From NCBI RefSeq assembly GCF_000383235.1, contig NZ_KB910933.1:1-64000 (forward strand): a DNA stretch of 64,000 nucleotides, read 5' to 3'. Position numbers and translations under genes: made by a program. Each line of letters opens with the position of its first letter. Position 1 is the first letter of the stretch. Under the pieces are notes generated by a model that did not search any database, was not told where the DNA came from, and was given only the letters and a program-made list of their open reading frames with translations. The DNA comes from Bacillus sp. 123MFChir2 (GTDB taxonomy: Bacteria; Bacillota; Bacilli; Bacillales; Bacillaceae_G). This document shows, in pieces, positions 24,640 to 50,658 of the stretch.

Positions 24640-24870
24640 TAATTTCACTTACCGTAATGAATGTAATGTTAAACAATAAAGAGAAGTATACATAAATCCA
24701 TTTTAATTTTTCGACATCTTTGTCTAGCTCTGCCTATACAGTCGGCTCCGATTTTCTATTTAAGTCGCTGCTTTGTAGAATACATCATGACTGCTTCTAC
24801 ACATGGCCAGACGCTCTCGCCCACCTAAAAAGAAAAGGGTTTTTAGGTTGATTTTTAAATTGGATACATA
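24640..24870 (+). repeat. Interspersed repeat, copy 7
   Basis: The left arm (ATACATAAATCCATTTTAAT), an unusual ~50-bp internal segment (24718-24765, CTAGCTCTGCCTATACAGTC) absent from other copies, then GTAGAATACATCATGAC, a shortened core (the GGCAG...GGCCC part is deleted), and ACGCTCTCGCCCACC with the right arm. It lies after the sspH terminator. Confidence 0.7.
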
Positions 24871-29411: not shown

Positions 29412-29545
29412 ATATAACCAAATTATGATCCGCACTCGCTATCTCCCTTTGTATTAAACCTTGTATGTGGCAGAAAAAGGCCCTGACCGATTTATACATG
29501 GCCAGATGCTCTCGTCCATCTAAGAAGAAAGGTTTTTTTATGTCC
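29412..29545 (+). repeat. Interspersed repeat, copy 9
   Basis: Core and right arm (TGTGGCAGAAAAAGGCCCTG, CATGGCCAGATGCTCTCGTC); the left arm is absent. It abuts the 3' end of the alpha/beta hydrolase gene. Confidence 0.72.
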
Positions 29546-31229: not shown

Positions 31230-31423
31230 ATATAATCGTTTGTAAAGATATATATAAATTCAATTTTCCTTTCCAACATACAAATCATCGCCATGCTAAG
31301 CAAACAATACCCTCATACTTTCTTTCCTCTTTGTTTGAACATCGCATGTGGCAGAGAAAGGCCCTGACCGCTTCTACTTATGGCCAGACGCTCTCGTCCA
31401 TCTAAAAAGAAAAGGGTTTTTAT
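31230..31423 (+). repeat. Interspersed repeat, copy 10
   Basis: Well-conserved core (GCATGTGGCAGAGAAAGGCC, TGGCCAGACGCTCTCGTCC) and right arm GGGTTTTTATG. A MITE (copy A) has inserted in its tail. Confidence 0.75.
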
Positions 31424-31431
31424 GTAATTTT

Positions 31432-31717
31432 GTAACTACTCAGTCATACATTTCGTTTAGAAGTTTGGTAAGGAGTATGATTCCAGCGAAAATACGCCCC
31501 GCCCCTTATTGCATATAGAAAGTTATTTTTATTTTTCAGCATATAGATTACTGTCATGGAGATAGAAACGGGCCTACACCTCGCTACCTCTCTTTGTTTT
31601 AAAACTTTGCGCGTGGCAGGAAAAGGCCCTGACCGCTTCTATGCATAGCCAGTCCCTCTCGACCATTTTAAAAAAATGTTTTTCTGTCGGTTTTTCAAAG
31701 AGTAACTGAGTAGTTAC
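31432..31717 (+). mobile_element. Complete MITE, copy A
   Basis: A 286-bp non-coding element. The terminal inverted repeats GTAACTACTCAG (31432) and CTGAGTAGTTAC (to 31717) are perfect over at least 12 bp. It is flanked by a perfect 8-bp duplication GTAATTTT (31424-31431 and 31718-31725). It is nearly identical to copy B (57752-58023) over most of its length. The central core is related to the shorter interspersed repeats. No coding capacity. An 8-bp duplication with ends beginning GTAA is the pattern of IS66-family elements, so mobilisation by such a transposase is plausible. Confidence 0.9.
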
Positions 31718-31728
31718 GTAATTTTTTT

Positions 31729-31762
31729 AATTTGGACATATATAGTTTGATATGTCCAAATT
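31729..31762. promoter_or_regulatory. Perfect 13-bp inverted repeat upstream of the PP2C-like gene
   Basis: AATTTGGACATAT, 8 bp, ATATGTCCAAATT. It could be an operator or a terminator; it lies about 75 bp before the next gene. Confidence 0.45.
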
Positions 31763-31838
31763 TTTCTTTGAAAAAGTATCTTTTTTTTAGTAGATACTAT
31801 AAGCTTATCTTATAATCATAATGAAACGAGGGATGGGG

Positions 31839-33043: not shown

Positions 33044-33520
33044 TTGAAATTACTAATTGATAATCCAAAGAAAATGGAACTAAGGTTATCTTTGAGTGAA
33101 TCAAATAGATTTCTTAGCCTGGAGCTTAAACAAGCTATGGAAACAAGGCTTTCAAAGCTGTTAATTGATGAGGGGAATTATATATGGTATACCAATTGGT
33201 TAATTGTGTCGAAAGATAAAAATTGTAGTGTTGGAGGAATCATGTTAAAAGGTCTTCCAAATGAAACTGGTGAAGTAGTAATTGGTTATTATACTTTTCC
33301 TGAATATCAAGGAAACGGCTATATGACGGGAACAATTCATACTATGAAAAACTGGTTGTTAAATCAGAACGGTGTTATGTACGTTATTGCTGATACTGAT
33401 AAAGACAATATCCCATCGCACAGGGTATTACAAAAATCAGGTGCGGAAATGTATAAAGAAACAGATGAATTATATTTTTGGAGATTTGGCCGGAATCAGT
33501 TCCCTGAAAAAAATAGTTAA
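33044..33520 (+). pseudogene. GNAT-family N-acetyltransferase, N-terminus probably lost
   Basis: About 158 codons from a TTG that has no ribosome-binding site. The body is a good GNAT domain: WLIVSKDKNCSVGGIMLKGL, GEVVIGYYTFPEYQGNGYMT (acetyl-CoA loop Q-x-N-G-x-M), then HRVLQKSGAEMYKETDELYF. Family members start with a short strand and helix (typically an ETERLxL-type segment) before LLIDNPKKME; here that part is replaced by repeat DNA. So the insertion or recombination of a repeat seems to have removed roughly 20 codons and the promoter. It may be silent. Confidence 0.6.
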
Positions 33521-33724: not shown

Positions 33725-33900
33725 GGTCGTTTATTCATATAAAACCCTGCTATGCAGAATACAACATGACCTGCACTCTCATCCTCCTTTTGTTTTAAAC
33801 CTCGCATGTGGTAGGAAAGGGCCCTGACCGTCTCTATGCACAGCCAGATTCTCTCATCCCCTTAAAAAGAAAGGGTTTTTATGCCAGTTTTAAACTTGTA
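33725..33900 (+). repeat. Interspersed repeat, copy 13
   Basis: Full core (GCTATGCAGAATACAACATG, TAGGAAAGGGCCCTGACCG) and right arm AAAGGGTTTTTATGCC. It ends a few bases from the stop of the first NIS synthetase. Confidence 0.75.
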
Positions 33901-33906
33901 TATATT

Positions 33907-35886
33907 TCAATCACATAATGGATTTTTAACTTTTACATAAAAATAAGCATGAGCTTCTCCCATCATCCGCATAAGGGTTAAAGCTTTATAATCTACTTGA
34001 TCTGCAAAAAAGACAGCATAGTCAGATATTGCACATTCTTTGTAGTTAGGATCCTCTTGTAAATCTACAAATATATTATGTAAGACTCGTTTTACTATAT
34101 TCCATAGCAGTTGTTCATCTAATTCATAGAACTGACTGATATGTAAAAATAATTCGCCAAAGTGATTTTGCATTACAGAGTAAAATACTTTATTACGCAT
34201 ACTTTTTTCATCGTCTACTAAAATTCTTGATTTATGATGAAACATGTTTAAATCAAACCCTGCATTTTGTAAACGGTTACGATGAACACGAATACCTTCC
34301 CAATCACGCACGAGTAATCGATCCGGTGTACCATCTTTTTTAAAGACAGGGACTGTGTTTTGCAGGTGACCTTCTAAGCCAATGCCGTATTTCACCATGA
34401 GCGGAATAAAACCGGTAAGAGCATTTGTTACATATTTCTCAATAAACATAACAATTGCATCGTGTAATGGTAGGTTATGGTTCTCCTTATATAGTTCAAT
34501 TAGTTCTACTATGAATGGTTTATTTGTACCGTGTACGGAAGCGACAAGGGCAGATCCGACAATAGCCCATTCATCTTGATTCACATAAGCATGGATATTA
34601 TCACGTATGACGCAAGCAAGATTTTCACTTCGTAATGTTTGGAATTCTTCGTCTACGTCATTTGGATGAAGAAAATGAGCACCAGCCCGCTCCAAAATAG
34701 GAACAAAACGAGTATCGTCAATCATTGTATCTTGCGTAACAATTTGTTTTAAAATGTTGCTCATAATTGGCCCGTTGTGAATCGTTTGTTCTGATAAAGT
34801 TCGTACTTCCCCAGTTAAATGAATATTAGTTGTTAGTTTATAATGTGGTCTAATCGTATCATACTGGGCGGGAAAGATTGTGCGAAATGACATCCCCGCT
34901 AAATATTTTGCTTTATAGTCCAATAAAATAATATCTTGTTTCTCAAGTTCAGTACTATAAATTTCACGTAACGTATGAGTAGCTTGCCATGGATGAATTG
35001 GTAATAGAATATAGTCGTCTAGCTTATCACCGATTTTTAGTTCAGCTTCTACTTGTAGTGCAGGTTCAAAAGAAAATATTATTTCATTCCAATTTTGGTC
35101 TTCCATAAAAGCTGAGCTTACGTAATTTTGGTGTACTGCTACGAAGCGGAGTGGAATCGTATTCTTAAACTCTGCTGAATAAGCTAATGTTTCTTCTGGG
35201 CTTAAACCCTTCCTCATTTTGGCACCAGGGTGACAAGGGTGTCCTTCTATAACGAGCTGTTCGAAAAAGGCATAGGAATCGCGGGCCTGAGAAGCAGCTT
35301 GTAGCGCCTTCGTATTCTCAGTTTGTTCATGAAATGTATAAGCAAGAGCCAAATTAGCAGCACTATTTGTAACATCGTCTTCAAACATCTGAAAATAGGA
35401 AGAAGGCCCTTGCCAATCTTCCTGTATTAGCAGTGCTAATGCCTCATTCGGATGCGTAATTTCTTTTTCAGTAGAAGGTGATACAAGAAGATACGGCCCA
35501 CTGATAACTGGTCGTTCAAAAGCATATATGTGCCGAATAGGTATAAGCAAGTATGTGTTTTGCTTCTTAAAATATAGTCCTTGTACTATTGAAAACTCGT
35601 TAAATTGCTGTGTATGAGTATTTATATAATCTAGTAAAAAGTCTGGACAGCACTGTTCTGAAAATGAAACAAATACTCCTTTATGTTTACGAAGCAAAAT
35701 CCCGGTCTCTGTCATGTTACATATATTTTCACGAATGAAGGAAGAGAGTAATCGTTCAAGTATACCAGCTCGTCCTTTTTGAATCATTTGTTGATAGGTT
35801 TCATGTAGTGGTGCGTAATGTTGCTGTAAAAAAGAAAGCAAGTTTTGTTCCTCTAATTCTAATGTTTGAACTTTATTGAGTTGCAT
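33907..35886 (-). CDS. NIS siderophore synthetase, SfaD-like
   Basis: A 659-residue IucA/IucC-type, NRPS-independent siderophore synthetase. Motifs are EGHPCHPGAKMRKGLSPEE (~215), LPIHPWQATH, MSFRTIFPAQYDT, NGPIMSN, GLEGHLQNTVPVFKKDG and VRDWEGIRVHRNRL, followed by the FhuF-like C-terminal region. These enzymes adenylate a carboxylate, usually citrate, and join it to an amine. It is divergent from an exporter, a second synthetase and a racemase, the order of sfaD and sfaABC in staphylococci, where SfaD makes the first citrate-D-ornithine bond. The ATG at 35886 has AAAGGTGG upstream; the TTG at 35904 lies before that site. A Fur box lies 68 bp upstream. Substrate assignment is by context. Confidence 0.85.
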   Translation of the reverse strand: MQLNKVQTLELEEQNLLSFLQQHYAPLHETYQQMIQKGRAGILERLLSSFIRENICNMTETGILLRKHKGVFVSFSEQCCPDFLLDYINTHTQQFNEFSIVQGLYFKKQNTYLLIPIRHIYAFERPVISGPYLLVSPSTEKEITHPNEALALLIQEDWQGPSSYFQMFEDDVTNSAANLALAYTFHEQTENTKALQAASQARDSYAFFEQLVIEGHPCHPGAKMRKGLSPEETLAYSAEFKNTIPLRFVAVHQNYVSSAFMEDQNWNEIIFSFEPALQVEAELKIGDKLDDYILLPIHPWQATHTLREIYSTELEKQDIILLDYKAKYLAGMSFRTIFPAQYDTIRPHYKLTTNIHLTGEVRTLSEQTIHNGPIMSNILKQIVTQDTMIDDTRFVPILERAGAHFLHPNDVDEEFQTLRSENLACVIRDNIHAYVNQDEWAIVGSALVASVHGTNKPFIVELIELYKENHNLPLHDAIVMFIEKYVTNALTGFIPLMVKYGIGLEGHLQNTVPVFKKDGTPDRLLVRDWEGIRVHRNRLQNAGFDLNMFHHKSRILVDDEKSMRNKVFYSVMQNHFGELFLHISQFYELDEQLLWNIVKRVLHNIFVDLQEDPNYKECAISDYAVFFADQVDYKALTLMRMMGEAHAYFYVKVKNPLCD

Positions 35887-35953
35887 AGAAACCACCTTTC
35901 TCAAGTTTTCTGTCTTTACAGATAAAAAAGAATAATTTATATTATTTTACATA

Positions 35954-35972
35954 GATAATGATAATCAATATC
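35954..35972. promoter_or_regulatory. Fur box in the sfaD/sfaA divergent region
   Basis: GATAATGATAATCAATATC matches the 19-bp Fur consensus at 17 of 19 positions. It sits between the two divergent starts and could control both. Confidence 0.85.
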
Positions 35973-36015
35973 AATTATAAAGAGTGCATGTGAAAATGCA
36001 ACAAAAAGTTTCGGG

Positions 36016-37209
36016 GTGGTTTTTATTCGTAAACTATTTTTTAGTAGTTCATTTTTCTTATTTATGGGGAATTGGCTTGGAATGACTGCAATCAATTGGT
36101 ACGTCTATGACTTGTATCATAGTGCCACGTATTTAGGATGGATCAACTTTGTACGGCTGATTCCTATTGCGTTGTTTAGTGTATATGCAGGGAAGCTTTG
36201 TGATCTGTATCCACGTATTAAGTTGATGAAGACCTATTCATTCTGGGGGCTAGTAGTTACAACTCTACTTGCCATGTATGTTGTGTTTATTACTCCTTCT
36301 TTTTTTATTTTTCTTCTATTCTCATTTATAAGAGGAGTAATTAGTGCATTAGAAACACCAAATCGAAATACGCTTCTCTCAGATATCGATACGAACCAGC
36401 AAATTAGTAAATTGATATCTATGAACTCATTTGTGATGAATGTTTGCCGCTCAACAGGGCCAGCTGTTGCTGGTTTTTTGATTGCAGGAGGACATATTGA
36501 GGTGACGTTTATGATGCAGGCAATTTGTTCATTTGTTGCATTTATTCTCGTATTACCAATGAAAGATCGAGAGATGAAAAAACGAAAGGAAAAGAAAAAA
36601 GCAAGTTGGGAACAAATTGTTCAATATTTTTCCCATGATCAAATGGGAAGAAATATATTTATGACATCGATGATCACAATGGCTTTTGGCTTCTCTTATA
36701 CGTCTGTACTGCCTGTACTCGTTTCTCATCAATTTACTGGAAAAGCGGAAATATTCGGCATTGCGATGTCTGCGGCAGCAATTGGGGCCATTATAGCAAC
36801 GATTATTCTTCCTAGAATACTAGAGTATATTTCAGAAATTAAGATTTATTACATGAGTTTACTTTTGTTTTCTATTAGTATACCGCTCCTAGTTATTAGT
36901 AATACATTTGTGTTTTTTATACTTCTATTCTCTATCGGACTTTTTGGACAGTTGTTACGTTCTAGTAACCGTGTTTATTTTCAAAACAATGTTCGTGAAG
37001 AAGAACGAGGTCTCATGCTTAGTGTTGTATTAATGGACCGAGGAATGATTCCGCTCGGTTCAATTATAGTAAGTTACGCAATTGAGTATGTGGGGATTTC
37101 TGAAACATTTGTGATGATGGGGATTTTATGTATGATCCCATTTGTATTGCAATACATAAAAGTGAAAAAACAAAATAGGAAGGTGAAGAGTTTTGTCCAT
37201 TCAAAATAA
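36016..37209 (+). CDS. MFS siderophore exporter, SfaA-like
   Basis: A 397-residue membrane protein with about 12 helices. KLFFSSSFFLFMGNWLGMTA and the loop YAGKLCDLYPRIKLMKTYS fit the MFS-3/EntS-type exporters, and LETPNRNTLLSD is typical of them. It is the first gene of the plus-strand set and overlaps the second synthetase by 17 bp. This is where staphyloferrin A loci keep the exporter. The start is uncertain: the GTG at 36016 opens the frame, but GGGGTGG overlaps it; a non-ATG codon a few bases later is possible. Role as siderophore exporter is inferred from position. Confidence 0.8.
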   Translation: MVFIRKLFFSSSFFLFMGNWLGMTAINWYVYDLYHSATYLGWINFVRLIPIALFSVYAGKLCDLYPRIKLMKTYSFWGLVVTTLLAMYVVFITPSFFIFLLFSFIRGVISALETPNRNTLLSDIDTNQQISKLISMNSFVMNVCRSTGPAVAGFLIAGGHIEVTFMMQAICSFVAFILVLPMKDREMKKRKEKKKASWEQIVQYFSHDQMGRNIFMTSMITMAFGFSYTSVLPVLVSHQFTGKAEIFGIAMSAAAIGAIIATIILPRILEYISEIKIYYMSLLLFSISIPLLVISNTFVFFILLFSIGLFGQLLRSSNRVYFQNNVREEERGLMLSVVLMDRGMIPLGSIIVSYAIEYVGISETFVMMGILCMIPFVLQYIKVKKQNRKVKSFVHSK

Positions 37210-38998
37210 ACAATCCAATCGAGTACAAGCAGAATATCGTATTTTAAATCGTTTTTGTAATGCGTTAATTCGTGAAAAAATTTTATTAGAAAGTTGTGCT
37301 GTGCTAAAGCATGAGCATGGTATTGAAATTATAGATAGTATGAATGAAGCAGAATTATTACTACAAGTGCAACAAGAAGGGGCATTTGAACGATATGAAT
37401 TTTCTTTCCCACTTCGCTTTAAAGTAAGAGGGCATATTAGATGGATTGATTCATTACAAGTGTTTTTTGAAGAGGTAGCACCATTCTTTCAGCTCCATGT
37501 TTCAGATGCTCTGCAAAATGAATTACAGAACAGCGTTGAGAACTTAGAACTGGCTTATGAGGCATGGGAACAAAAACAGGAATGGGTAAAGCAACAGCTC
37601 GAAACAAACATGATGTTTTATGCGAAATACAAACCAAATAATCTATATCAATTCTTCGAAGAGTCAAAAAGATGTACGTCGTTTGATGAACTCTTATATA
37701 CAGAGTCATTAGTAATTGAAGGACATCCACTGCACCCTTCAACAAAAACAAAACTTGGTTTATCGAAAGAAGAAGTAAAGCGCTATGCACCTGAATTTGA
37801 ACAAGTTGTTCCGTTATATGTATTACTTGTTCATAAAGATGTAATAACAGTTACAGGAGAGCGTTTTGACAAAAAATTATTATATACAGCTCTGCTAGAT
37901 TTATATGAAACAGCATATGAAACACTAATAAATCAAAGAAAACAAATGGAGGATTATTATCCATTTCTTGTTCATCCATGGCAATATGAACATGTGCTAA
38001 CCAAAGAGTATGAGACCGATTTAGCGGAAGGGCGCATCATTCCAATTCCGTATCAACTTCTGTCCCGGGCGACGCTTTCATTTCGAACGATGAATCTACT
38101 AGAACTGCCGTACCATGTCAAGCTTCCGGTACGCGCGCAAGCTACGAGTGCGGTCAGAACGGTATCACCAGAAATAACTGTAAACGGACCGGTTCTTTCT
38201 TCGTTATTTGATACCATTTACGCAAATGAGAAAGAGTTAGCACAGTCGGTGGTTGTTGTTCGTGAACGAGTTGGGGCTACTTTTACGAAAAATGGTAATG
38301 TTGATTTAGGACGGAATCTCGCATTTATTTTACGAGAAAGCCCACATGTATATAAGCAAGAAGGAGAATTACTATGGGTTGGAGCTAGTTTAACAGCAAG
38401 TAATCCATTAAAAGAAGATGAACCAGTTATTGTAGATATAATGCGCACATATTTTGAAACAGAAACGATTGGCAAAAAAGAGGTATTTCATTATGTTGCT
38501 CATTATACAGAGAAAGTTATGATTCCTTTACTACAGCTTGTTTTACAATATGGAATTGCATTAGAAGGGCATATGCAAAACTCTATTATTGTTACAAAGG
38601 GCGGAGCAATCCAACGAATTTTTGTGCGTGATTTAGGAGGCGTGCGAATTCATAAGAAGACATTAGCGAAGGTAGTAGATATTGCGAATCTGAAAGAAGC
38701 AGTTGTATTTACAGATGATAGAAATGAAGTTTATAACAAATTTATTCATTCTGTATTGCAAAACCACTTTGGAGATGTGTTATTTACGTTAGCTCTTGCG
38801 ATAGACGACGTACAGGAAAAAGAATTATGGAGAATTGTTGCTGCGATTGTGAAAGAGTATATGGTAGATGCAACAGAAGAGCAAAAAGCAGCAATATTTG
38901 CAGATCAAATTGAAACAAAAGCATTGTTTTCTATGAGAATAGAAGATCAAGCGAAAGCTTATTTGTATACAAAGTTTCATAATCCGCTTTGTATATAA
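37193..38998 (+). CDS. NIS siderophore synthetase, SfaB-like
   Basis: A 601-residue IucA/IucC-type synthetase. EGHPLHPSTKTKLGLSKEEV, FLVHPWQYEHVL, SFRTMNLLELPYHVKLPV, NGPVLSS, ALEGHMQNSIIVTKGG and VRDLGGVRIHKKTLAK are in the usual order. It differs from the divergent synthetase along most of its length, as SfaB and SfaD do. In staphyloferrin A synthesis SfaB adds the second citrate. The TTG at 37193 has AGGTGAAG six bases upstream. It overlaps the exporter gene, so the two are coupled. It is separated from the racemase gene by an interspersed repeat. Confidence 0.86.
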   Translation: MSIQNKQSNRVQAEYRILNRFCNALIREKILLESCAVLKHEHGIEIIDSMNEAELLLQVQQEGAFERYEFSFPLRFKVRGHIRWIDSLQVFFEEVAPFFQLHVSDALQNELQNSVENLELAYEAWEQKQEWVKQQLETNMMFYAKYKPNNLYQFFEESKRCTSFDELLYTESLVIEGHPLHPSTKTKLGLSKEEVKRYAPEFEQVVPLYVLLVHKDVITVTGERFDKKLLYTALLDLYETAYETLINQRKQMEDYYPFLVHPWQYEHVLTKEYETDLAEGRIIPIPYQLLSRATLSFRTMNLLELPYHVKLPVRAQATSAVRTVSPEITVNGPVLSSLFDTIYANEKELAQSVVVVRERVGATFTKNGNVDLGRNLAFILRESPHVYKQEGELLWVGASLTASNPLKEDEPVIVDIMRTYFETETIGKKEVFHYVAHYTEKVMIPLLQLVLQYGIALEGHMQNSIIVTKGGAIQRIFVRDLGGVRIHKKTLAKVVDIANLKEAVVFTDDRNEVYNKFIHSVLQNHFGDVLFTLALAIDDVQEKELWRIVAAIVKEYMVDATEEQKAAIFADQIETKALFSMRIEDQAKAYLYTKFHNPLCI

Positions 38999-38999
38999 A

Positions 39000-39138
39000 T
39001 ACAAAGTGGAAAAAAGACGTAAAAGAATCCTTTCTTTTAGGGGGATGAGAGCAACTGGCCGTGCATAGAAGCGGTCAGGGCCTTTTCTTGCCACATGCAA
39101 AGGTAAAACAAAGATGTCGAAAAATTAAAGTGTATTCA
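39000..39138 (-). repeat. Interspersed repeat, copy 14, inside the siderophore set
   Basis: AGGGGGATGAGAGCAACTGG, CCGTGCATAGAAGCGGTCAG and GGCCTTTTCTTGCCACATGC. It occupies nearly the whole gap between the SfaB-like and racemase-like genes. Confidence 0.75.
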
Positions 39139-39157
39139 TGTAGTAGGAGGAGTGAGC

Positions 39158-40255
39158 ATGCTACCTATTATGAAAGTAAATCTTTCAAAATTGAAGCATA
39201 ATGCCATGATGATGAAGCAATTATGTGAGCGCTCAAATATGATATGTTTTCCGGTGACAAAAGGAGTCGGCGCTGTAAAAGAAGTAGTTGAAACGCTTCA
39301 ATCAGCAAAGTATACAAGATTTGCTGATTCTAGATTACAGCATCTTCATCACATTCGTTCTATCGTTGGAAAAGAAGCTGAGCTCTTATTGATTCGTACG
39401 CCAGCTTTGTCGGAAGTAGAAGAAACGGTTCTATGTGCTGATATTAGTTTGAATTCTGAGCTATGTATTATAGAGGCATTAGGAAGAGCAGCGAGAACAT
39501 ATGGGAAAGTACATCGTGTCATTTTAATGGTTGATTTAGGTGATCTTCGCGAAGGAATGCTGCCGCATCAGGTAGTAGAAACAGCGCAAAGAGTATCGAA
39601 TATACCGGGAATTGTACTTGATGGTATTGGAGCAAATTTCACTTGCTTTAGCGGTGTCATTCCAACTGAGAGTACTTTGCAAGAGTTAACACAATTAGCA
39701 AAGTTAGTAGAGAAAACAATAGGGATACAGCTCCGATTTATCTCGGGAGGGAATTCAAGTTCGTTACCACTTATTATGCAAAAGAAACAAATTGGGCGCG
39801 TCAATTCTTTACGGATTGGAGAAGCAATTTTTCTAGGAAAAGAAACAGCATACGGAAAAAATATTCCCTTTATGTATCAAGATGTATTTTCAATTGAAGC
39901 AGAAATTATTGAAATAAAAAGAAAGCCGTCTATGCCAAGGGGAGTCATTGGAAGAGATGCGTTTGGTCAAGTTCCCTCTTTTGAAGATAAAGGGGAGCGA
40001 CTACGAGCAATTGTTGCAATTGGAAGACAAGACCTTGATATTAACGGTTTAAGAGTCTCTAATAAGAATATTGAAATTCTTGGTGGAAGTAGTGATCATT
40101 TAATTGTTGATATAACGGATAGTACACCACACCGCATAGGGGACAAAATGACATTTGTTCCAGCATATAGTGCATTGCAAAGCGGTATGGTTTCATCACT
40201 CGTACGAAAACAATATGTGTATGATGAGGTGCTGCAAAAAGCGCTTATTTTATAA
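39158..40255 (+). CDS. Alanine/ornithine racemase-like PLP enzyme, SfaC-like
   Basis: A 365-residue fold-type III PLP enzyme. VTKGVGAVKEV (~37) holds the probable PLP lysine, VILMVDLGDLREGMLP and ISGGNSSSLP are barrel motifs of the alanine/ornithine racemase family, and NSLRIGEAIFLGKE lies near the phosphate site. SfaC in staphylococci is the racemase that provides D-ornithine for staphyloferrin A; this context fits. The ATG at 39158 has AGGAGG seven bases upstream; the GTG at 39152 is an alternative. A hairpin follows the stop. Substrate is inferred; ornithine is favoured by neighbours. Confidence 0.82.
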   Translation: MLPIMKVNLSKLKHNAMMMKQLCERSNMICFPVTKGVGAVKEVVETLQSAKYTRFADSRLQHLHHIRSIVGKEAELLLIRTPALSEVEETVLCADISLNSELCIIEALGRAARTYGKVHRVILMVDLGDLREGMLPHQVVETAQRVSNIPGIVLDGIGANFTCFSGVIPTESTLQELTQLAKLVEKTIGIQLRFISGGNSSSLPLIMQKKQIGRVNSLRIGEAIFLGKETAYGKNIPFMYQDVFSIEAEIIEIKRKPSMPRGVIGRDAFGQVPSFEDKGERLRAIVAIGRQDLDINGLRVSNKNIEILGGSSDHLIVDITDSTPHRIGDKMTFVPAYSALQSGMVSSLVRKQYVYDEVLQKALIL

Positions 40256-40298
40256 AGTGAAACTTTCATTAGCGGGGCTATTTACTGCCCATGAGTCA

Positions 40299-40324
40299 TT
40301 TCCAAAAAATATTTTTTTTGGAAA
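40299..40324 (+). terminator. Hairpin after the racemase gene
   Basis: TTTCCAAAAAA...TTTTTTGGAAA, weak terminator-like palindrome separating synthesis and uptake genes. Confidence 0.45.
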
Positions 40325-40364
40325 AATGATAGACAATTTCTAAAATTATGCTATCATATTAAAT

Positions 40365-40383
40365 GAAAATGATTATCAATATT
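40365..40383. promoter_or_regulatory. Fur box of the siderophore uptake operon
   Basis: GAAAATGATTATCAATATT matches the Fur consensus at 16 of 19 positions, 22 bp before the binding-protein start. A TATCAT-like -10 lies just upstream, so Fur would sit on the promoter. Confidence 0.85.
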
Positions 40384-40404
40384 GCTTGTATGGGGGATTA
40401 CATA

Positions 40405-41367
40405 ATGAACAAGAAAAAAATGAGTACTTTACTTGTAGCGATGACATTAGCGGTGGGAGCGCTTGCTGGCTGCAGTGGAGGAGCAAAAGAAACAGCTAAA
40501 AAAGAAGATAAAGCGGAAGCGAAAAATCAAGCAGGATCAGTGAAAATTAAACATGAGTGGGGAGAAACAGAGTTAAAAGAGACACCAAAAAACATTGTAA
40601 CTCTCGACTTTTCATTTATCGATACATTAGTAGATTTAGGTGTTACACCAGTTGCAAATGCTGGAGTGGGGAAAACAAAAGTTCCAGAATATTTACAAGA
40701 TAAAGCATCGAAAGTTAAAGATGTTGGAGAGCGAAAAGCACCAAACTTAGAAGTGATTTCATCTGTGAAACCAGATTTAATTATTGCGAGTAAAGATCGC
40801 CACAATATGATTCAAAAAGAATTAAAAGATATTGCGCCAACAATTGCATTCGATGATAACAGTTATGACGAAGTAATGAAGAATATGGATACCATTGCGA
40901 AAGCAGTTGGAAAAGAAGAGCAAGCGAAAAAGATTCGTACAGAATTACAAGATAAAATTTCAAAAGCAAAAGAGAAAATAAAAGGAAATCCAACAATACT
41001 TGTTATTGGTGCCTTTGATGATGAGTTTTCTGTATGGATTAAAGATTCATTTATCGGTTCTTTAATGACAAATGTTGGTGTGAAGTACGCATATGAAGGG
41101 AAAAAAGAAAAAACAGAAGGTAAAGCAGAAATTGCTAAAATTACGATGGAACGTCTAAATGAAATCAATCCTGACTATATCTTCCTATATGGAGAAAATG
41201 TAGAGAAGTTTAAAAATAATCCGCTATACAATAACTTAAAAGCAGTAAAAGAAAAGCATGTCATTGATGTGGATCGTAATCTTTGGGCACGTGGGCGCGG
41301 ACCAATTGCAGCAGATAAAATTTTAGATGAGGCACTTCCAGCATTAACGGGTCAGTCTTCTAGATAA
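40405..41367 (+). CDS. Siderophore-binding lipoprotein of an ABC importer, HtsA-like
   Basis: A 320-residue lipoprotein. The signal peptide ends at LAGC (~22), giving an acylated cysteine on the outer face of the membrane. The FecB/periplasmic-binding fold has TPKNIVTLDFSFIDTLVDLG, LEVISSVKPDLIIASKDRH and NEINPDYIFLYGE. The ATG at 40405 has GGGGGAT upstream. It heads a four-gene uptake operon behind a Fur box, directly after the synthesis genes. HtsA binds ferric staphyloferrin A in staphylococci; that this protein binds the same type of compound is inference from context. Confidence 0.88.
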   Translation: MNKKKMSTLLVAMTLAVGALAGCSGGAKETAKKEDKAEAKNQAGSVKIKHEWGETELKETPKNIVTLDFSFIDTLVDLGVTPVANAGVGKTKVPEYLQDKASKVKDVGERKAPNLEVISSVKPDLIIASKDRHNMIQKELKDIAPTIAFDDNSYDEVMKNMDTIAKAVGKEEQAKKIRTELQDKISKAKEKIKGNPTILVIGAFDDEFSVWIKDSFIGSLMTNVGVKYAYEGKKEKTEGKAEIAKITMERLNEINPDYIFLYGENVEKFKNNPLYNNLKAVKEKHVIDVDRNLWARGRGPIAADKILDEALPALTGQSSR

Positions 41368-41380
41368 GGAGTTGGAGACT

Positions 41381-42412
41381 TTGTATCAAATACAAACTAG
41401 AAGCAGACGGGCATTACACCCGTATGCTTCTTCTACTTTGCAATTTATTTTCTTTTTTCTACTATTAGTAATGGTTGGAGCTCTCTCCGCATTATTTCGT
41501 GTAAAAGGATTATCATTTCATAACATATCGGAAGTATTTGAAACGGATACAAAAAATTTAATTTACTATACAGTATGGCAAGTACGTGTACCGCGTGTCA
41601 TGCTGGGAGCTTTACTTGGCGCGGCATTAGCTGTTGCCGGGTGTCTATTACAAGGGATTACGCGAAATCCGTTATCTGATCCAGAAAATATGGGAATAAA
41701 TCAAGGAGCTTCTTGTTTTGTTGTCATTGCCCTTTTACTATTTGGAGAAAAGGATACGAGTTTCGTTATTTTACTAGCAGCTTTTCTAGGGGCTGCTGCA
41801 GGTGGAAGTGTGATTTATTCATTAGCATTTCGCGGTGAATATACACCTTCACGTCTTGTGCTTGCTGGCATTGCGATGAGCCTATTCCTTGGATCATTAA
41901 CGACAGGAGCAATATTGTTATACGAAACACAATTAACAGAAATTTTATATTGGATGGCCGGAAAGTTATCAGGGGCAAACTGGCAAGATATAAAAATGAT
42001 GTTAGTTTCGGCAGTTCCTGTTATGATTCTTGTGTTTTTTCTAGCAAATCAATTGAATATTTTATCTCTTGGTGAAGAGACAGCACGTGGACTTGGTGTA
42101 AATGTACTTTGGATTCGGAGACTATTTGCGTTTTTAATTGTTATTCTTGTCGGTAGTGCGGTTGCGGTAGCAGGACCGATTGGATTTATCGGACTCATAG
42201 TTCCGCATATCGCAAGAAAACTAGTTGGTCAAGATTATCGCATTATTATACCGTTTTCGGCATTGCTTGGTGCTAATCTTCTTGTTATAGCAGATTTTGC
42301 GGCGCAATGGGTGTCTTATCCAGCAGATACACCTGTTGGCGTTATTACAGCACTTTTAGGTACACCATTCTTCATTTATTTAATGAGAAGGAAGAGAGGT
42401 GCTGTGAAATGA
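41381..42412 (+). CDS. Siderophore ABC importer permease 1, HtsB-like
   Basis: A 343-residue FecCD-type permease with about nine helices. RVPRVMLGALLGAALAVAGC, QGITRNPLSDPENMGINQGA and GPIGFIGLIVPHIARKLVGQ are the family signatures; the last contacts the ATPase. The TTG at 41381 is favoured, with AAGGAG eight bases upstream. Its stop overlaps the next start (ATGA). It pairs with the next permease. Confidence 0.92.
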   Translation: MYQIQTRSRRALHPYASSTLQFIFFFLLLVMVGALSALFRVKGLSFHNISEVFETDTKNLIYYTVWQVRVPRVMLGALLGAALAVAGCLLQGITRNPLSDPENMGINQGASCFVVIALLLFGEKDTSFVILLAAFLGAAAGGSVIYSLAFRGEYTPSRLVLAGIAMSLFLGSLTTGAILLYETQLTEILYWMAGKLSGANWQDIKMMLVSAVPVMILVFFLANQLNILSLGEETARGLGVNVLWIRRLFAFLIVILVGSAVAVAGPIGFIGLIVPHIARKLVGQDYRIIIPFSALLGANLLVIADFAAQWVSYPADTPVGVITALLGTPFFIYLMRRKRGAVK

Positions 42413-43386
42413 AGAAGTTTGGCCGGTTTACAATGGTTATAATAGTAGGTTTTTTATTGTTAATTGCAGTTTCTCTATTAAGCTTGCGTCTTGGCGCTGT
42501 ACCAACACCACTTGCTGACATTATAGAAGGGTTGATGACAGGAGAAGGTGTTGTATTAAAATATCGTTTACCACGTCTTATCATCGCAATTTTAGTTGGG
42601 ATTAACATGGCATTATCAGGATCTATTTTACAAAGTGTTACACGAAATCCACTTGCAGCACCTGATATTATTGGGGTTTCTGCTGGTGGAGGATTAGCAG
42701 CTGTTATTATGCTCCTTATGTTTCCGAGTGTGCCGGCAATTATGCTTCCAGTGGCTGCATTTGTCGGGGCAATGATTGCGAGCTTGCTTGTGTATGTATT
42801 ATCGTATCAAAAAGGAGGAGTAAAGCCAGAACGTCTTGCACTATGCGGCGTTGCTATTTCTACAGGTTTACAGGCGCTTATTACATTTATTATTGTGAAA
42901 TTTGCGGTTGATTCCTCACAAGCTCTTGTATGGCTAAAGGGAAGTTTATATGCAAGGTCTTGGGAACATGTTGATATGCTATGGCCATGGACGATCATTG
43001 GAGCGGTCATTACATTTGCAAGTTATAAGCAAATGAATCTGTTATTATTAAATGAAGAAACAGTAAAAGGTTTAGGTATGCGTATTCATGTTGTTCGTCT
43101 TGTGCTGATTGGCGTAGCTGTTGCTTTAGCTGCAAGTTCAGTAGCAGTAGCAGGGACAATTAGTTTTGTAGGCCTCGTTATCCCACATGCGGCGCGTTTA
43201 CTTGTTGGATCAGATAGTAGATTGTTTTTGCCAGTTTCAGCGTTATTTGGTGCATTACTTGTTACGAGTGCAGATATGGTGGGAAGAATTATTATTCCGC
43301 CAATTGAAATACCAGCTGGTATTATCACAGCTCTTATTGGCGCACCGTATTTTATATATTTACTCGTGATTAGAAAAAGAACATAG
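42409..43386 (+). CDS. Siderophore ABC importer permease 2, HtsC-like
   Basis: A 325-residue FecCD-type permease. YRLPRLIIAILVGINMALSG, QSVTRNPLAAPDIIGVSAGG and GTISFVGLVIPHAARLLVGS are typical. The ATG at 42409 overlaps the previous stop, and GAGAGG lies before it. It forms a heterodimer with permease 1. Confidence 0.92.
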   Translation: MKKFGRFTMVIIVGFLLLIAVSLLSLRLGAVPTPLADIIEGLMTGEGVVLKYRLPRLIIAILVGINMALSGSILQSVTRNPLAAPDIIGVSAGGGLAAVIMLLMFPSVPAIMLPVAAFVGAMIASLLVYVLSYQKGGVKPERLALCGVAISTGLQALITFIIVKFAVDSSQALVWLKGSLYARSWEHVDMLWPWTIIGAVITFASYKQMNLLLLNEETVKGLGMRIHVVRLVLIGVAVALAASSVAVAGTISFVGLVIPHAARLLVGSDSRLFLPVSALFGALLVTSADMVGRIIIPPIEIPAGIITALIGAPYFIYLLVIRKRT

Positions 43387-43419
43387 TCTTCTATAAATAA
43401 CAAATAAGGGGTGAATAAA

Positions 43420-44241
43420 ATGACAAGTTTACATACGGAGCAGTTAGAGCTTACGTACGGAAATCAAACCATTATTAATCATCTTGATTTATATATTCCA
43501 GAAGGGAAAATTACGGCATTAGTTGGCCGAAATGGATGCGGGAAATCAACAATTTTAAAATCTTTAGCACGGCTGCTGCAACCAACTAAGGGTCACGTAT
43601 ATTTAGATGGTAAAGCAATTCATACGATGCCAACAAAAGAAGTATCAAAGAAATTGGCAATATTACCACAGTCACCGACGGCACCTGAAGGATTAACGGT
43701 AGAAGGTCTTGTTTGGCATGGTCGTTACCCGCACCAACGTCTACTTGGAAAGCGAACAGAGAAAGATCATGAAATGGTAAACTGGGCGCTTGAAGTAACG
43801 GGAATGAATCAATTTACAGATCGTACATTAGACGAACTGTCAGGTGGACAGCGGCAACGCGTTTGGATTGCGATGGCACTTGCACAAGATACGGAGTTAT
43901 TATTATTAGATGAACCGACGACGTATTTAGATATGGCCCACCAGTTAGAAGTATTAGAGTTATTGAAAAAGTTAAATGAAGAAGAAAATCGAACGGTTGT
44001 TATGGTTGTACATGATTTAAATCATGCCGCAAAATATGCACATCATATTGTTGCGATTAAAGATGGAGATAAAGTGATGGAAGGAGCACCAAGTGATATT
44101 TTAAATGATGAATTGTTTGAAACCGTGTTTGGTGTGAAAGCGCGTGTTGTATACGATCCAGTTGCAAAGACGTATATGTGTACACCGTATGCGTTACTTT
44201 CAGAGAAAAAAGAAAAGCTCGAAGAAAGAATTGTTGGGTGA
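43420..44241 (+). CDS. Siderophore ABC importer ATPase
   Basis: A 273-residue FepC/FhuC-type ATPase. It has Walker A GRNGCGKST, Q-loop LPQSPTAPEG, signature LSGGQRQRVW, Walker B LLLLDEPTTYLD and H-loop VVHDLNH. The ATG at 43420 has AAGGGGTG upstream. In Staphylococcus the hts transporter lacks its own ATPase and borrows FhuC; here a dedicated one closes the operon. A strong terminator follows. Confidence 0.93.
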   Translation: MTSLHTEQLELTYGNQTIINHLDLYIPEGKITALVGRNGCGKSTILKSLARLLQPTKGHVYLDGKAIHTMPTKEVSKKLAILPQSPTAPEGLTVEGLVWHGRYPHQRLLGKRTEKDHEMVNWALEVTGMNQFTDRTLDELSGGQRQRVWIAMALAQDTELLLLDEPTTYLDMAHQLEVLELLKKLNEEENRTVVMVVHDLNHAAKYAHHIVAIKDGDKVMEGAPSDILNDELFETVFGVKARVVYDPVAKTYMCTPYALLSEKKEKLEERIVG

Positions 44242-44475: not shown

Positions 44476-44979
44476 TTGAGTGAAGTGAAAAATATAATTC
44501 ATCATTTTAATCATTATTCATCTTGGTTAACCACTTTAAAAGAAATCGATGAAACATTATGGTTTAAACCGATAGCTGATGGTAAATGGTCTGTAAGTGA
44601 GATAATAGCACATATTATGAATTGGGATAATCATTTATTAACAGAAGTCCTCCCATCTGTACAAAATGAAAAGGGAATGAAGTTTCCTGATTTTGATACA
44701 CATAATAAAAAGGCGTCAAACTACGCAAAATCAGGTATACCACATTCAAAACTTCTTGAAGAAGCAAAAAATACAAGGGAATTACTTGTAAGAGAACTTA
44801 ACGAGCTACCAATCGAAACGTTAAAAAAGCCATTAACTGCAAACGGTGTAACTCATTGTCCACATACTGGAACTCCTTATTCACTTATATATATTGTAAA
44901 GGAATTTACAGACCACGATAACTATCACCAAAGACAAATTATACAATTCCTAGGGGAAAACAGCCTATTTATAAAATAA
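44476..44979 (+). CDS. DinB-family (DinB/YfiT-like) damage-inducible protein
   Basis: A 167-residue four-helix-bundle protein: HFNHYSSWLTTLKEIDETLW, GKWSVSEIIAHIMNWDNHLL with the first His, and FTDHDNYHQRQIIQFLG with the second and third His. Such His-triad bundles bind a metal ion. The family was named for dinB of B. subtilis, a DNA-damage-inducible gene, and is unrelated to polymerase IV. Some members are thiol transferases. The TTG at 44476 has GAAAGAGGGA upstream. The SOS box gives direct support for LexA control. Exact function unknown. Confidence 0.82.
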   Translation: MSEVKNIIHHFNHYSSWLTTLKEIDETLWFKPIADGKWSVSEIIAHIMNWDNHLLTEVLPSVQNEKGMKFPDFDTHNKKASNYAKSGIPHSKLLEEAKNTRELLVRELNELPIETLKKPLTANGVTHCPHTGTPYSLIYIVKEFTDHDNYHQRQIIQFLGENSLFIK

Positions 44980-45052
44980 GGGTGTAGCTTAAAATTAGGC
45001 TTGATTAAAAGTGGTCCTCAAAACTGGATTGTACGACAAAATAAAGTGAAGG

Positions 45053-45132
45053 CATTAACGGGCAATTATCCCCAACCTATCTTCTTTGCTTCCCTCTGAA
45101 TCTTGATGTGGGGGTCTTACCGCCCGTTAATG
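45053..45132. repeat. Hairpin repeat, CATTAACGGGC arms
   Basis: Perfect 11-bp arms CATTAACGGGC and GCCCGTTAATG, 58 bp apart, followed by GCGGGATAAAA. Parts of this unit recur at about 2752, 40270 and 52318, so it is a second dispersed repeat type. It accounts for part of the 560-bp gap between the dinB-like gene and nhaC. Confidence 0.6.
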
Positions 45133-45275
45133 CGGGATAAAAAGAAGCCATTTTGAAAAAGCCTAGTCGAAATGGTTTTCATTTTTGAAATTAGATTTTT
45201 GGTTTTATAAAAAAGTTGATTATTTATATTTATTTGATTAAATGCATCATACAAACTTTTGGAAGTTGAGAATAT

Positions 45276-45319
45276 AAAAAGAAACTATTTCTATCAATTT
45301 TAAAATAGTTTCTTTTTTT
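45276..45319. terminator. Terminator-like hairpin
   Basis: AAAAAGAAACTATTT / AAATAGTTTCTTTTTTT. No gene directly precedes it, so it may block read-through into nhaC. Confidence 0.7.
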
Positions 45320-45540
45320 GAATTGGATTGAATATTAATGAAATAAGAAAAATTAATGTATTTTTTCAAATTAACATTGCGAAATGCAGGCTGTACTTTT
45401 ACAATAAAAAGGTCGTATATTTATTATACTAAAAAAACAAATCGGAATAATGTGAATATTTATGTTTTATCTAGTTATATTTATGTAAAAATAACTAAAC
45501 GACATGCATCATGTTATTGCTTCATAAGGAGAGAAGAAAT

Positions 45541-46944
45541 TTGAAAAGTGTAAGATTACCATCGATGATTGAAATCATCATTCTTTTGTTGTTATTTTTA
45601 GGCGTTGTCTTTTCATTTCAGGCAATTTTTGATTTACCGATTCAACTTGCGTTATTTATTTCATGGTTTCTTGTCATTGCGCTTGGATTAAAACTTGGGT
45701 TTCGTTATCAAGAATTACAAGATGCAATTACAAAAGGAATTTCGAATGGACTTGAAGCCATTTTAATATTAGTAGCGGTTGGTTCTCTTATTGGAACTTG
45801 GATTGCTGGCGGTGTTGTGCCAACACTAATTTATTATGGTTTAGAATTTATTCACCCGAGTATCTTTCTATTAGCGACATTAATTATTTGTTCGATTACA
45901 TCTATCGCAACAGGGACTTCTTGGGGGACGGTAGGTACAGCTGGTATTGCCATGATGGCAATCGGGGAAGGACTTGGATTACCACTTCCTCTTGTAGCTG
46001 GTGCAGTTCTGTCCGGTGCGTATTTCGGAGATAAATTATCACCATTATCTGATAGCACTGTACTTGCAGCTTCTATGGCGAAAGTAGATGTTATTGCGCA
46101 CGTTCGTGCTATGTTGTATTTAGATGTTCCAGCTTATATTATTACTGGTAGTATGTTTACAGTTGCCGGCTGGATATATGGCGGAAAGAATGTAGATTTA
46201 GAAAAAGTAGATTTCCTAAAGGCATCATTACTAAAGCAATTTGATATTCACATTTGGATGCTTGTTCCAGCGGTCGTTGTCATTATACTGTTAGCGATGA
46301 AACGTCCATCTATGCCTACAATTGCAATGGGTGCTCTTCTTGGTGCGATCTGGGCAGCTCTGTTCCAAGGTATGCCATTTGGGGAAGCGATTGGTACAGC
46401 TTACAAAGGGTTTTCTATTGATTCCGGTATCGATTTCATTGATAAGTTATTGAATCGCGGCGGAATTGAAGGAATGCTCGGTTCAGTTGCAGTAATTATT
46501 TTCGGGCTTGGTTTTGGTGGTTTACTAGAAAAGCTTGGTGTTTTGAAAGTTATTGTTTCGAAGTTTGAGAAAAAATTAACTTCTGCAGGCAATGTAACAC
46601 TTTCGACTTTAATTGTTGCATTTTTAGCAAACGTATTTGGCTGTGCGATGTATGTATCGTTAATTTTAACGCCAAAAATTATGGAAGAAAGCTATGATAA
46701 ATTAAAATTAGATCGCCGCATTTTAGCTCGTAACTCCGAAGTCGGCGGAACGCTTACATCAGGGATGGTTCCATGGTCTGATAACGGGATCTTTATGGCG
46801 GGTATTTTAGGTGTTTCAACACTATCTTATCTACCATTTATGTGGCTGAGCTTTGTATCATTAGCGCTCGCTGTCATTTATGGATATACAGGTAAATTTA
46901 TTTGGTATGTAGATGACGTTGAGAAAGAAAAGCAAGTATCATAG
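45541..46944 (+). CDS. nhaC: Na+/H+ antiporter NhaC
   Basis: A 467-residue membrane protein with about 11-12 helices. SGAYFGDKLSPLSDSTVLAA (ion-site loop), ATGTSWGTVGTAGIAMMAIG and SEVGGTLTSGMVPWSDNGIF are NhaC signatures. It exchanges sodium for protons, or malate/lactate in the MleN branch. The TTG at 45541 has AAGGAGAG upstream; a longer frame lies before that site. A gene for fumarase follows, so the MleN (malate-Na/lactate-H) reading is worth keeping in mind. Confidence 0.88.
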   Translation: MKSVRLPSMIEIIILLLLFLGVVFSFQAIFDLPIQLALFISWFLVIALGLKLGFRYQELQDAITKGISNGLEAILILVAVGSLIGTWIAGGVVPTLIYYGLEFIHPSIFLLATLIICSITSIATGTSWGTVGTAGIAMMAIGEGLGLPLPLVAGAVLSGAYFGDKLSPLSDSTVLAASMAKVDVIAHVRAMLYLDVPAYIITGSMFTVAGWIYGGKNVDLEKVDFLKASLLKQFDIHIWMLVPAVVVIILLAMKRPSMPTIAMGALLGAIWAALFQGMPFGEAIGTAYKGFSIDSGIDFIDKLLNRGGIEGMLGSVAVIIFGLGFGGLLEKLGVLKVIVSKFEKKLTSAGNVTLSTLIVAFLANVFGCAMYVSLILTPKIMEESYDKLKLDRRILARNSEVGGTLTSGMVPWSDNGIFMAGILGVSTLSYLPFMWLSFVSLALAVIYGYTGKFIWYVDDVEKEKQVS

Positions 46945-46948
46945 TATG

Positions 46949-46989
46949 AAAAATCATCCTTTCGCTTATAGAGGGGATGTTTTTTTTGT
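46949..46989 (+). terminator. Weak terminator of nhaC
   Basis: AAAATCATCC...GGGGATGTTTTTTTT. Confidence 0.55.
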
Positions 46990-47068
46990 TTCCGGTGGTA
47001 ATATTTGTTATTTTCTATGTTTTCGGTAAAATGTAAGAGAAGGTATTTAATACTAAGGGGATGAAAAC

Positions 47069-48457
47069 ATGGAATATAGAATTGAAAGAGATACATTAGG
47101 AGAAATGAAAGTTCCAGCTGATAAATTATGGGCAGCGCAAACGCAGCGTAGTAAGGAGAACTTTCCGATTGGAACAGAGCGCATGCCTCTTGAAATTGTT
47201 CGAGCATTTGCAATTTTAAAGAAAAGTGCGGCACTTAGTAATCAAAAGTTAGGGAAGTTAGCAGAAGAAAAGGTTAATGCAATTGTAGGAGCGGTTGATG
47301 AAATTTTATCGGGAAAATGGGATGATCATTTTCCGCTTGTTGTTTGGCAGACTGGAAGTGGGACACAGTCTAATATGAATGTGAATGAAGTGATCGCCAA
47401 CCGCGGAAATCAAATTTTAAGAGAAAAAGGACTAGATCTTCATATTCATCCGAACGATGACGTGAATATGTCTCAAAGCTCAAATGATACATTTCCAACA
47501 GCACTTCATATTGCGTGTGTAGTAGCTGTAGAAGAGCAAGTATTACCAGCAGTAGCAAAATTAAAAGACACGTTACAAGAAAAAGTAAACGAGTTCGCTC
47601 ATATTATTAAAATTGGTCGTACTCATTTGCAAGATGCAACACCATTAACGTTAGGACAAGAAGTGAGCGGATGGCATTGTATGCTTGAAAAGACAGAGCG
47701 GATGATTAGAGAAAGCAGTACATATATGAAAGAACTTGCAATTGGTGGTACTGCGGTTGGAACAGGGATTAATGCCCATCCAAAATTCGGTGAAATGGTT
47801 GCAGAAGAAATTAGTCATTTCACAGGAAAACAATTTGTATCGGCGCCAAATAAATTTCATGCGTTAACAAGTCATGATGAAGTTGTTTATACGCACGGGG
47901 CTTTAAAAGCGTTAGCCGCTGATGTAATGAAAATTGCAAACGATGTCCGTTGGCTTGCAAGTGGACCGCGCAGCGGTCTTGGGGAAATTACGATTCCAGC
48001 AAACGAACCAGGGAGCTCTATTATGCCAGGAAAAGTAAATCCAACGCAAAGTGAAGCTATAACGATGGTCGCAGCGCAAGTTATGGGAAATGATGCAACG
48101 ATTGGCTTTGCGGCAAGTCAAGGAAACTTTGAATTAAACGTCTTTAAGCCGGTCATTGCTTATAATTTCTTACAATCTGCTCGATTATTAGCAGATGCAA
48201 TAATTTCATTTAATGATAAATGTATAGTAGGTATTGAAGCAAATGAAGAAATTATTGGGCAGCACTTAAATAACTCGTTAATGCTTGTAACAGCACTAAA
48301 TCCGCATATTGGTTATGAAAATGCAGCAAAGATTGCCAAGCATGCACATAAAGCAGGATTAACATTAAAAGAAGCAGCACTGCAATCAGGGTTATTAACA
48401 GAAGAACAATTTGATGAAATTGTAGATCCGAAGCAAATGATTGAGCCGAAGGAATGA
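47069..48457 (+). CDS. fumC: Class II fumarate hydratase
   Basis: A 462-residue iron-free fumarase. It has [55 protein letters not shown] and the family signature [11 protein letters not shown] (~315-325) with the catalytic Ser. It interconverts fumarate and malate in the TCA cycle as a tetramer. The ATG has AAGGGGATG upstream. Full length; followed by a terminator. Confidence 0.96.
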
Positions 48458-48519: not shown

Positions 48520-48712
48520 CATATATTAATATAAAGTGAAAAACCTTTTTCTTTTTTGCGGGGGCGAGAGCAACTGGCCATGCATAGAAAGCGGTCAGGG
48601 ACTTTTCCTGCCACTTGCAATGTAAACTTGGGAGGAAAGCGAGTGTCGGTCATGTTTTGTTCTTTATACGAGCGACTTATATGTTGAAAAAATAAAATGG
48701 ATTTGTATTTAA
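48520..48712 (-). repeat. Interspersed repeat, copy 15
   Basis: Complete member: GGGGGCGAGAGCAACTGGCC, AGCGGTCAGGGACTTTTCC, TGCCACTTGCAATG and the far-end segment AGCGACTTATATGTTGAAAA. Confidence 0.78.
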
Positions 48713-50607: not shown

Positions 50608-50608
50608 T

Positions 50609-50641
50609 AAAAAAGGACAACCGCTCCGGTTGTCCTTTTTT
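50609..50641 (+). terminator. Terminator between nosL and nosY
   Basis: AAAAAAGGACAACCG / CGGTTGTCCTTTTTT. It lies inside the gene set, so nosY-nosF may be expressed at a lower level than nosD-nosL, or from their own promoter. Confidence 0.88.
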
Positions 50642-50658
50642 GTGGAAAGAGGGGTACT

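Follow-up and report, generated by a model that had tools for sequence, protein, structure and literature searches.

Staphyloferrin A, listed at 480.38 g/mol (PMC9352062), has been studied as a siderophore of staphylococci, and the arrangement of its sfa genes and of the hts uptake genes has been described in Staphylococcus shinii (PMC11161930) and Staphylococcus lugdunensis (PMC3996567). Uptake in S. aureus is reported to use FhuC, which is encoded elsewhere (PMC10147376), and R104, R126 and H209 of the binding protein HtsA are given as ligand contacts (PMC10553834). In the rhizoferrin pathway, FslA is described as working together with a decarboxylase (PMC7857480). Fungal IucA/IucC clusters with weak similarity to the staphyloferrin A cluster (score 0.13) have been listed (PMC10700112). 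No bacterial sfa locus outside Staphylococcaceae was found in the literature surveyed by title and start of abstract, and an earlier description may exist. Here, a stretch of 64,000 nucleotides from Bacillus sp. 123MFChir2 (contig NZ_KB910933.1, positions 1 to 64,000; referred to as the window) was analysed. Its eight genes at 33907-44241 probably encode an iron-regulated system that makes, exports and recaptures staphyloferrin A or a very close dicitrate-ornithine siderophore.

Gene order, distribution and Fur boxes

All eight open reading frames (ORFs) at 33907-44241 were confirmed, with sfaD on the reverse strand, sfaA-sfaB-sfaC running divergently from it on the forward strand, and genes for a binding protein, two permeases and an ATPase following in the same direction. 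SfaD (33907-35904, with 35886 the more likely start from the sequence) and SfaB (37193-38998) are synthetases of the nonribosomal peptide synthetase (NRPS)-independent siderophore (NIS) type, each with IucA_IucC and FhuF-like Pfam domains. The SfaA-type exporter (36016-37209) belongs to the major facilitator superfamily (MFS; Pfam MFS_1), and the SfaC-type racemase (39152-40255; Ala_racemase_N) to the pyridoxal phosphate (PLP)-dependent Orr family. The HtsA-like ferric-siderophore-binding lipoprotein (Peripla_BP_2) ends at 41367; its ORF opens at 40363, but the start is more likely at 40405, because a predicted Fur box overlaps the longer ORF. FecCD permeases occupy the HtsB position (41372-42412) and the HtsC position (42307-43386), the latter likely starting at 42409 because of an ATGA overlap, and the uptake ATPase (ABC_tran) lies at 43411-44241. 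No decarboxylase, hydroxylase, acetylase or NRPS domain was found with Pfam among the eight proteins.

An SfaD relative at 48-52% identity was found in three of 397 sampled Bacillales genomes (G034, G077 and G059). G034 and G077 are the two sampled genomes of their genus, and all three carry the full eight genes in the order of the window, in G059 over two contigs. Among 398 genomes of class Bacilli, one further non-staphylococcal locus was found, in G506 (SfaD 47%). In this locus sfaD is divergent from sfaB-sfaC-binding protein-permeases, a differing MFS gene and an ATPase gene follow, and sfaA is missing. In the same search, 29 genomes, 2.0-3.0 Mb in size, had an SfaD match at 36-43% and, divergent from it, a second match; 18 of these 29 loci make up the staphylococcus-like set. 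They are taken as staphylococcal because of their HtsA identities and of the gene arrangements published for S. shinii and S. lugdunensis: HtsA of the 15 complete loci is 57-73% identical to S. aureus HtsA, and one such HtsA scored 458 bits against the PDB. Divergent sfaD and sfaABC-htsABC are seen in 15 of the 18; in the other three (L198, L207 and L208), neither sfaA nor an hts match was seen in the stretch examined. Published losses of sfaA are in line with these three loci (PMC12709192).

The 36 genomes in the genus of G189 yielded no sfa locus, the best match being 36% in a tandem pair of G215, nor did 19 genomes of the family of G133, where matches reach at most 38% and come in pairs; counts over 36 and 43 genomes cover one genus and one family only. 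A further 41 of the 397 Bacillales genomes have lower-identity NIS matches (E below 1e-70), mostly adjacent pairs and mostly at 28-39%. In the two tandem loci inspected (L128 and L129), the synthetases lie on the same strand, with a PLP decarboxylase and no racemase match; the best models of this decarboxylase are TIGR03099 and LysA, and FslC matches weakly. Tandem pairs are often accompanied by an MFS gene. This common tandem NIS locus of Bacillales possibly encodes a rhizoferrin-like pathway. G077 carries a second NIS pair besides its sfa-type locus (L125), and L216 of that pair is the tree neighbour of the AsbB-type row L210. SfaA of the window is 41-45% identical to SfaA of nine of ten compared loci and 25% identical to the differing MFS protein of G506. 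The SfaA type also occurs beyond sfa loci, as tandem locus L128 has a 50% identical exporter. A plasmid origin of the locus was considered and set aside, with no near match in 72,556 plasmid records, and SfaD had no match in viral contigs.

Fur boxes follow the 19-base consensus GATAATGATAATCATTATC. Two are predicted in the locus, one in the divergent sfaD/sfaA promoter region (35954-35972; one mismatch, 18/19) and one before the uptake operon (40365-40383; three mismatches, 16/19). The chance expectation for such sites is a mean of 0.10 per whole window, and none of 100 shuffles of the window, the one sequence used in this control, reaches the observed count. Sites with at most three mismatches are present at both spots in all four other non-staphylococcal loci. 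In the complete staphylococcus-like loci they are found in 9/15 sfaD/sfaA gaps and before 9/15 htsA genes, or in 10/15 and 15/15, respectively, if four mismatches are allowed. Both operons are predicted to be under Fur control. The gene families, their order and the two Fur sites proposed in the initial annotation of this DNA, made from the sequence alone, are thus borne out by ORFs, Pfam and consensus matching, and the first box is better than the 17/19 given there.

Synthetases, racemase and uptake proteins

In phmmer searches, the window SfaD scored 390-444 bits against the 18 staphylococcus-like SfaDs and 572-649 bits against those of the four other non-staphylococcal loci, one of them a fragment. 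The corresponding scores of SfaB are 258-318 and 407-493 bits. The solved petrobactin synthetase AsbB (3to3) reached only 117 bits with SfaD and 96 bits with SfaB, and IucA and IucC reached 56 bits each with SfaD and 57 and 96 bits with SfaB. FslA is the best NCBIfam model of both synthetases, at 221 and 210 bits with a cut-off of 1000. In a quick tree of 62 rows, the window SfaD forms a clade with the four other non-staphylococcal SfaDs (95*), and these together with ten staphylococcus-like SfaDs form one clade (100*); the window SfaB is placed inside the SfaB clade (97*). Both are inside their own clades with 100/100* support in smaller, more careful trees, in which tandem NIS rows are the only outgroup. 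Outside both sfa clades are the AsbB-type row L210 (427 bits to AsbB), the adjoining L216 and L217, which are AsbB-type by tree alone, and the DesD/IucC-type row L214, and Sbn-like rows of B. badius are placed elsewhere in the tree, apart from the sfa clades.

The catalytic core is intact, with 31/31 core NIS positions kept in SfaD and 29/29 in SfaB. Clade-only positions of SfaD were defined as those invariant in ten staphylococcus-like SfaDs and rare elsewhere (n=37). The window SfaD has 17 of the 37, against 0-4 in 30 control synthetases, and the signature of SfaB is the weaker of the two (10/37, against 0-5 in 30 controls).

The best NCBIfam model of SfaC is the ornithine racemase Orr (NF040742, 393 bits), which is also the best model for the racemases of G034, G077, G506 and the staphylococcus-like locus L191. 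The L191 SfaC scores 222 bits with this model, and an Orr proper (L002) 550 bits. The window SfaC is 44% identical to Orr of Acetoanaerobium, whose gene follows that of OraE. An OraE relative was found in the fetched flanks of 54 of 85 Orr-family loci examined, and 69 positions are conserved in at least 95% of these 54 Orrs, among which a badly aligned row, L054 (32/69), was retained. SfaC of the window has 65 of the 69, the four other non-staphylococcal SfaCs have 55-65 and the 18 staphylococcus-like SfaCs 40-45. In the racemase tree, SfaC of the window, of G506 and of the other three loci appear in unresolved order between staphylococcus-like SfaC and Orr. Judged from these comparisons, SfaC is a member of the ornithine racemase family and is closer to clostridial Orr than the staphylococcus-like SfaCs are. 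Its AlphaFold model (mean predicted local distance difference test score, pLDDT, 95.4) has the alanine racemase fold, with template modelling (TM) scores of 0.73 to 4y2w and 0.72 to the lysine racemase 4dza; no solved Orr structure was found by sequence search. A profile search of genome contigs with the Orr alignment gave at least 80 Orr relatives at 41-46% identity, and among the matches listed none is titled Staphylococcus. Orr-family racemases are also found on a Vibrio plasmid next to DUF1611 (L004) and in Bacteroidota (L067 and L087), and because of these settings the family appears wider than ornithine fermentation and siderophores.

The best PDB match of the binding protein is S. aureus HtsA (3eiw, 121 bits), followed by YfmC (119 bits). 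Besides the published contacts R104 and R126, it keeps R299, W302, R304 and R306, which, with Y239, we take to be further contacts of HtsA. YfmC lacks the C-lobe arginines R299, R304 and R306 in the printed alignment, whereas the window receptor has them. Identity to S. aureus HtsA is 47-51% for the receptors of the three Bacillales loci (G034, G077 and G059). The checked contacts are present in them apart from R304, for which G034 and G077, like eight of the staphylococcus-like loci, have lysine. The receptors of the window and G506 pair with strong support (100/98*) in a tree of 40 rows. The permease in the HtsB position is 52% identical to that of G506, 39-41% to those of the three Bacillales loci and 33-37% to those of six staphylococcus-like loci, and for the HtsC position the values are 56%, 41-44% and 36-41%. 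An ATPase gene is present in all five non-staphylococcal loci, window included, and the window ATPase is 53-58% identical to the other four. None was detected (tblastn, E <= 1e-6) in the 13 of 15 complete staphylococcus-like loci whose sequence extends 1 kb or more past htsC.

Proposed pathway, alternatives and history

Under low iron, Fur would leave the two boxes and the operons would be transcribed. SfaC would convert L-ornithine to D-ornithine, SfaD would join a first citrate to the side-chain amine of D-ornithine, and SfaB would add the second citrate. The product would then be exported by SfaA, and the lipoprotein, the two permeases and their own ATPase would take back the ferric complex. 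These steps, their order, the control by Fur and the service of the uptake genes to this product are deduced from the staphylococcal enzymes.

Several findings weigh against this pathway. Identities to the six compared staphylococcus-like loci are just 36-37% for SfaD, 31-33% for SfaB and 32-35% for SfaC, and therefore leave room for a changed substrate. The Orr score of SfaC is below the curated cut-off of 480 bits, and 31 relatives without OraE in the fetched flanks, one of them a Vibrio gene beside DUF1611, keep 60-69 of the 69 Orr positions. Because these relatives keep the same positions, ornithine is not proved as the substrate of SfaC; the use of the positions to assign ornithine specificity was dropped, as they mark the family and not the substrate. 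The receptor is excluded from the HtsA clade (99/98*, 40-row tree). It is without H209, where a W stands in the MAFFT alignment and a gap region in that of HMMER, and it has a gap at Y239; the G506 receptor likewise lacks both. Thus, of the initial annotation's proposal of staphyloferrin A or a close relative, the families, order, Fur boxes, synthetase clades and racemase family hold, while ornithine as substrate does not follow. Its named test, grouping with petrobactin, aerobactin or schizokinen enzymes, gave SfaD and SfaB clades instead, where petrobactin was represented by name by AsbB and the Iuc type by IucA, IucC and row L214.

An unlikely alternative is a related but different siderophore, with two citrates on another diamino acid such as lysine and a receptor that diverged to fit. 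The breadth of the racemase family and the separate position of the window and G506 receptors, both without H209 and Y239, would accord with this, and corynebactin, a dicitrate on L-lysine, provides a precedent (PMC7857480). However, all 18 staphylococcus-like loci and all five non-staphylococcal ones, that of the window among them, have an Orr-family racemase, the arginine contacts of the receptor are retained, and the window SfaD shares nearly half of the SfaD-only positions. It is also doubtful, with a rather low probability, that the biosynthetic genes make staphyloferrin A while the adjacent transporter serves another ferric carboxylate, for example ferric citrate. YfmC, named as ferric-citrate-binding, is nearly as good a PDB match as HtsA, and the receptor falls outside the HtsA clade; yet the approximately unbiased test does not reject a clade that joins HtsA with the receptors of the window and G506 (p-AU 0.19), R299, R304 and R306 are lacking in YfmC alone of the two, and the linkage to sfaC and to a Fur box is conserved. 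A petrobactin-, schizokinen- or aerobactin-type pathway, or a rhizoferrin-like one as the Bacillales tandem loci may encode, is very improbable. These pathways are all of the NIS type, the NIS pairs of lower identity come next in relatedness, and a tandem-type locus of G057 has an exporter 50% identical to SfaA, but the AsbB-type and DesD/IucC-type rows are outside both sfa clades, the tandem loci L128 and L129 carry a PLP decarboxylase, and domains for decarboxylation, hydroxylation, acetylation or NRPS assembly are lacking from the eight proteins. The preferred reading is therefore that the locus serves to make, export and take back staphyloferrin A or a very close siderophore of two citrates and ornithine.

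The window falls outside a single clade of the staphylococcus-like rows in all synthetase, racemase and receptor trees, which gives no support to a recent transfer from Staphylococcus. In the careful SfaB tree, the three Bacillales loci and the staphylococcus-like ones form a group (92/98, not starred) to which neither the window nor G506 belongs, and the receptor tree also leaves the window and G506 outside this grouping. SfaD does not reject such a position (p-AU 0.33). The quick tree differs, with the window SfaD among the non-staphylococcal SfaDs as given above and the window SfaB with the three Bacillales loci (83). Receptor identities run counter to synthetase identities, which prompted the idea that the uptake module had been swapped, and a single clade of the five non-staphylococcal receptors, window included, is rejected (p-AU 0.003). 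However, the synthetase trees do not clearly demand a differing history, and a swap appears neither needed nor excluded. The deeper branch order of the locus rests on thin sampling.

The presence of the ATPase in 5/5 non-staphylococcal loci suggests that the need of staphylococci for FhuC may be a derived state, after loss of an ATPase encoded in the locus; a gain by the other loci is possible too. More speculatively, and with the balance of probability against it, the window and G506 could represent an early-branching sfa-hts lineage with a variant dicitrate siderophore and a co-diverged private receptor, from which the staphylococcal locus would differ as a derived form, with its ATPase lost and its racemase reshaped. 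If so, given the lost H209 and Y239 contacts, the siderophore would not be open to piracy through staphylococcal HtsA.

The position of the receptor outside the HtsA clade, the absence of the ATPase from staphylococcus-like loci and the recurrence of the cassette in Bacillales go beyond the initial annotation. With complete loci of these clades in other Bacilli, staphyloferrin A would have a wider range, with likely environmental producers and users, and the receptor and racemase found here are natural variants for comparing specificity.

Genomic surroundings and comparison with known systems

A setting in the B. cereus group is not confirmed. Within 44476-48457, the best DNA identity over gene length in the 36 genomes of the genus of G189 is 79% for a DinB-family gene (G163) and 75% for nhaC (G401), and fumC has 67-70%. 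For the gene which we take to be flhA, the nearest of the 397 Bacillales genomes are at 75% (G133 and G070), both without an sfa locus. A HAD-family gene of the window matches a gene of G034 at 87% identity. On the strand opposite to sfaD, a GNAT-family acetyltransferase gene (33044-33520) lies just beyond it.

An interspersed repeat of ~95 bases occurs on both strands, with 12 matches to one copy (itself included). Copies lie at 279-369, 9558-9651, 24788-24848, 29457-29543, 31338-31431, 33798-33883, 39011-39098 (between sfaB and sfaC), 48539-48623 and others. It had no match in loci L088-L260 (E <= 1e-4), the stretch 31300-31800 with one copy had none in plasmids or phages, and three copies that were folded gave no unusually stable RNA structure. 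Rfam gave no match at the gathering threshold across the window. A strong hairpin element at 45051-45143 (z-score -3.6) resembles a bacterial interspersed palindrome. Partial or full copies at 72-87% identity are numerous across several genomes in the genus of G189, and L141 has one. NosD and NosL family genes at 48815-52166 are followed by what are presumably permease and ATPase genes; nosZ was sought no further than the listed ORFs of the window. At 7525-8840, a transposase-like gene, presumably of IS4 type, is split into two slightly overlapping ORFs, as if broken.

Among known systems, the sbn, asb and iuc pathways share the NIS superfamily with the window locus and differ in synthetase clades and accessory genes; the staphyloferrin B components SbnA, SbnB, the decarboxylase and the three Sbn synthetases are not among the eight proteins. 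Rhizoferrin FslA/FslC and the Bacillales tandem loci likewise have NIS chemistry in common with it, but FslA works with a decarboxylase, and the two tandem loci inspected have a PLP decarboxylase where the window has a racemase and encode their synthetases on the same strand. Clostridial Orr resembles the window SfaC in sequence (44% identity for Acetoanaerobium), in 65 of 69 positions and in the alanine racemase fold, whereas the window protein is below the cut-off of the family model and is linked to NIS synthetases, not to OraE. Staphylococcus sfaABCD-htsABC has the same divergent sfaD, the same sfaA-sfaB-sfaC run with co-directional genes for a binding protein and two permeases, the same synthetase clades and Fur-box-like sites at both places. 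The window locus differs from it in carrying an ATPase, which was found in none of 13 complete staphylococcus-like loci that are long enough, in a receptor outside the HtsA clade, and in a racemase much closer to Orr (393 bits, against 222 for L191).

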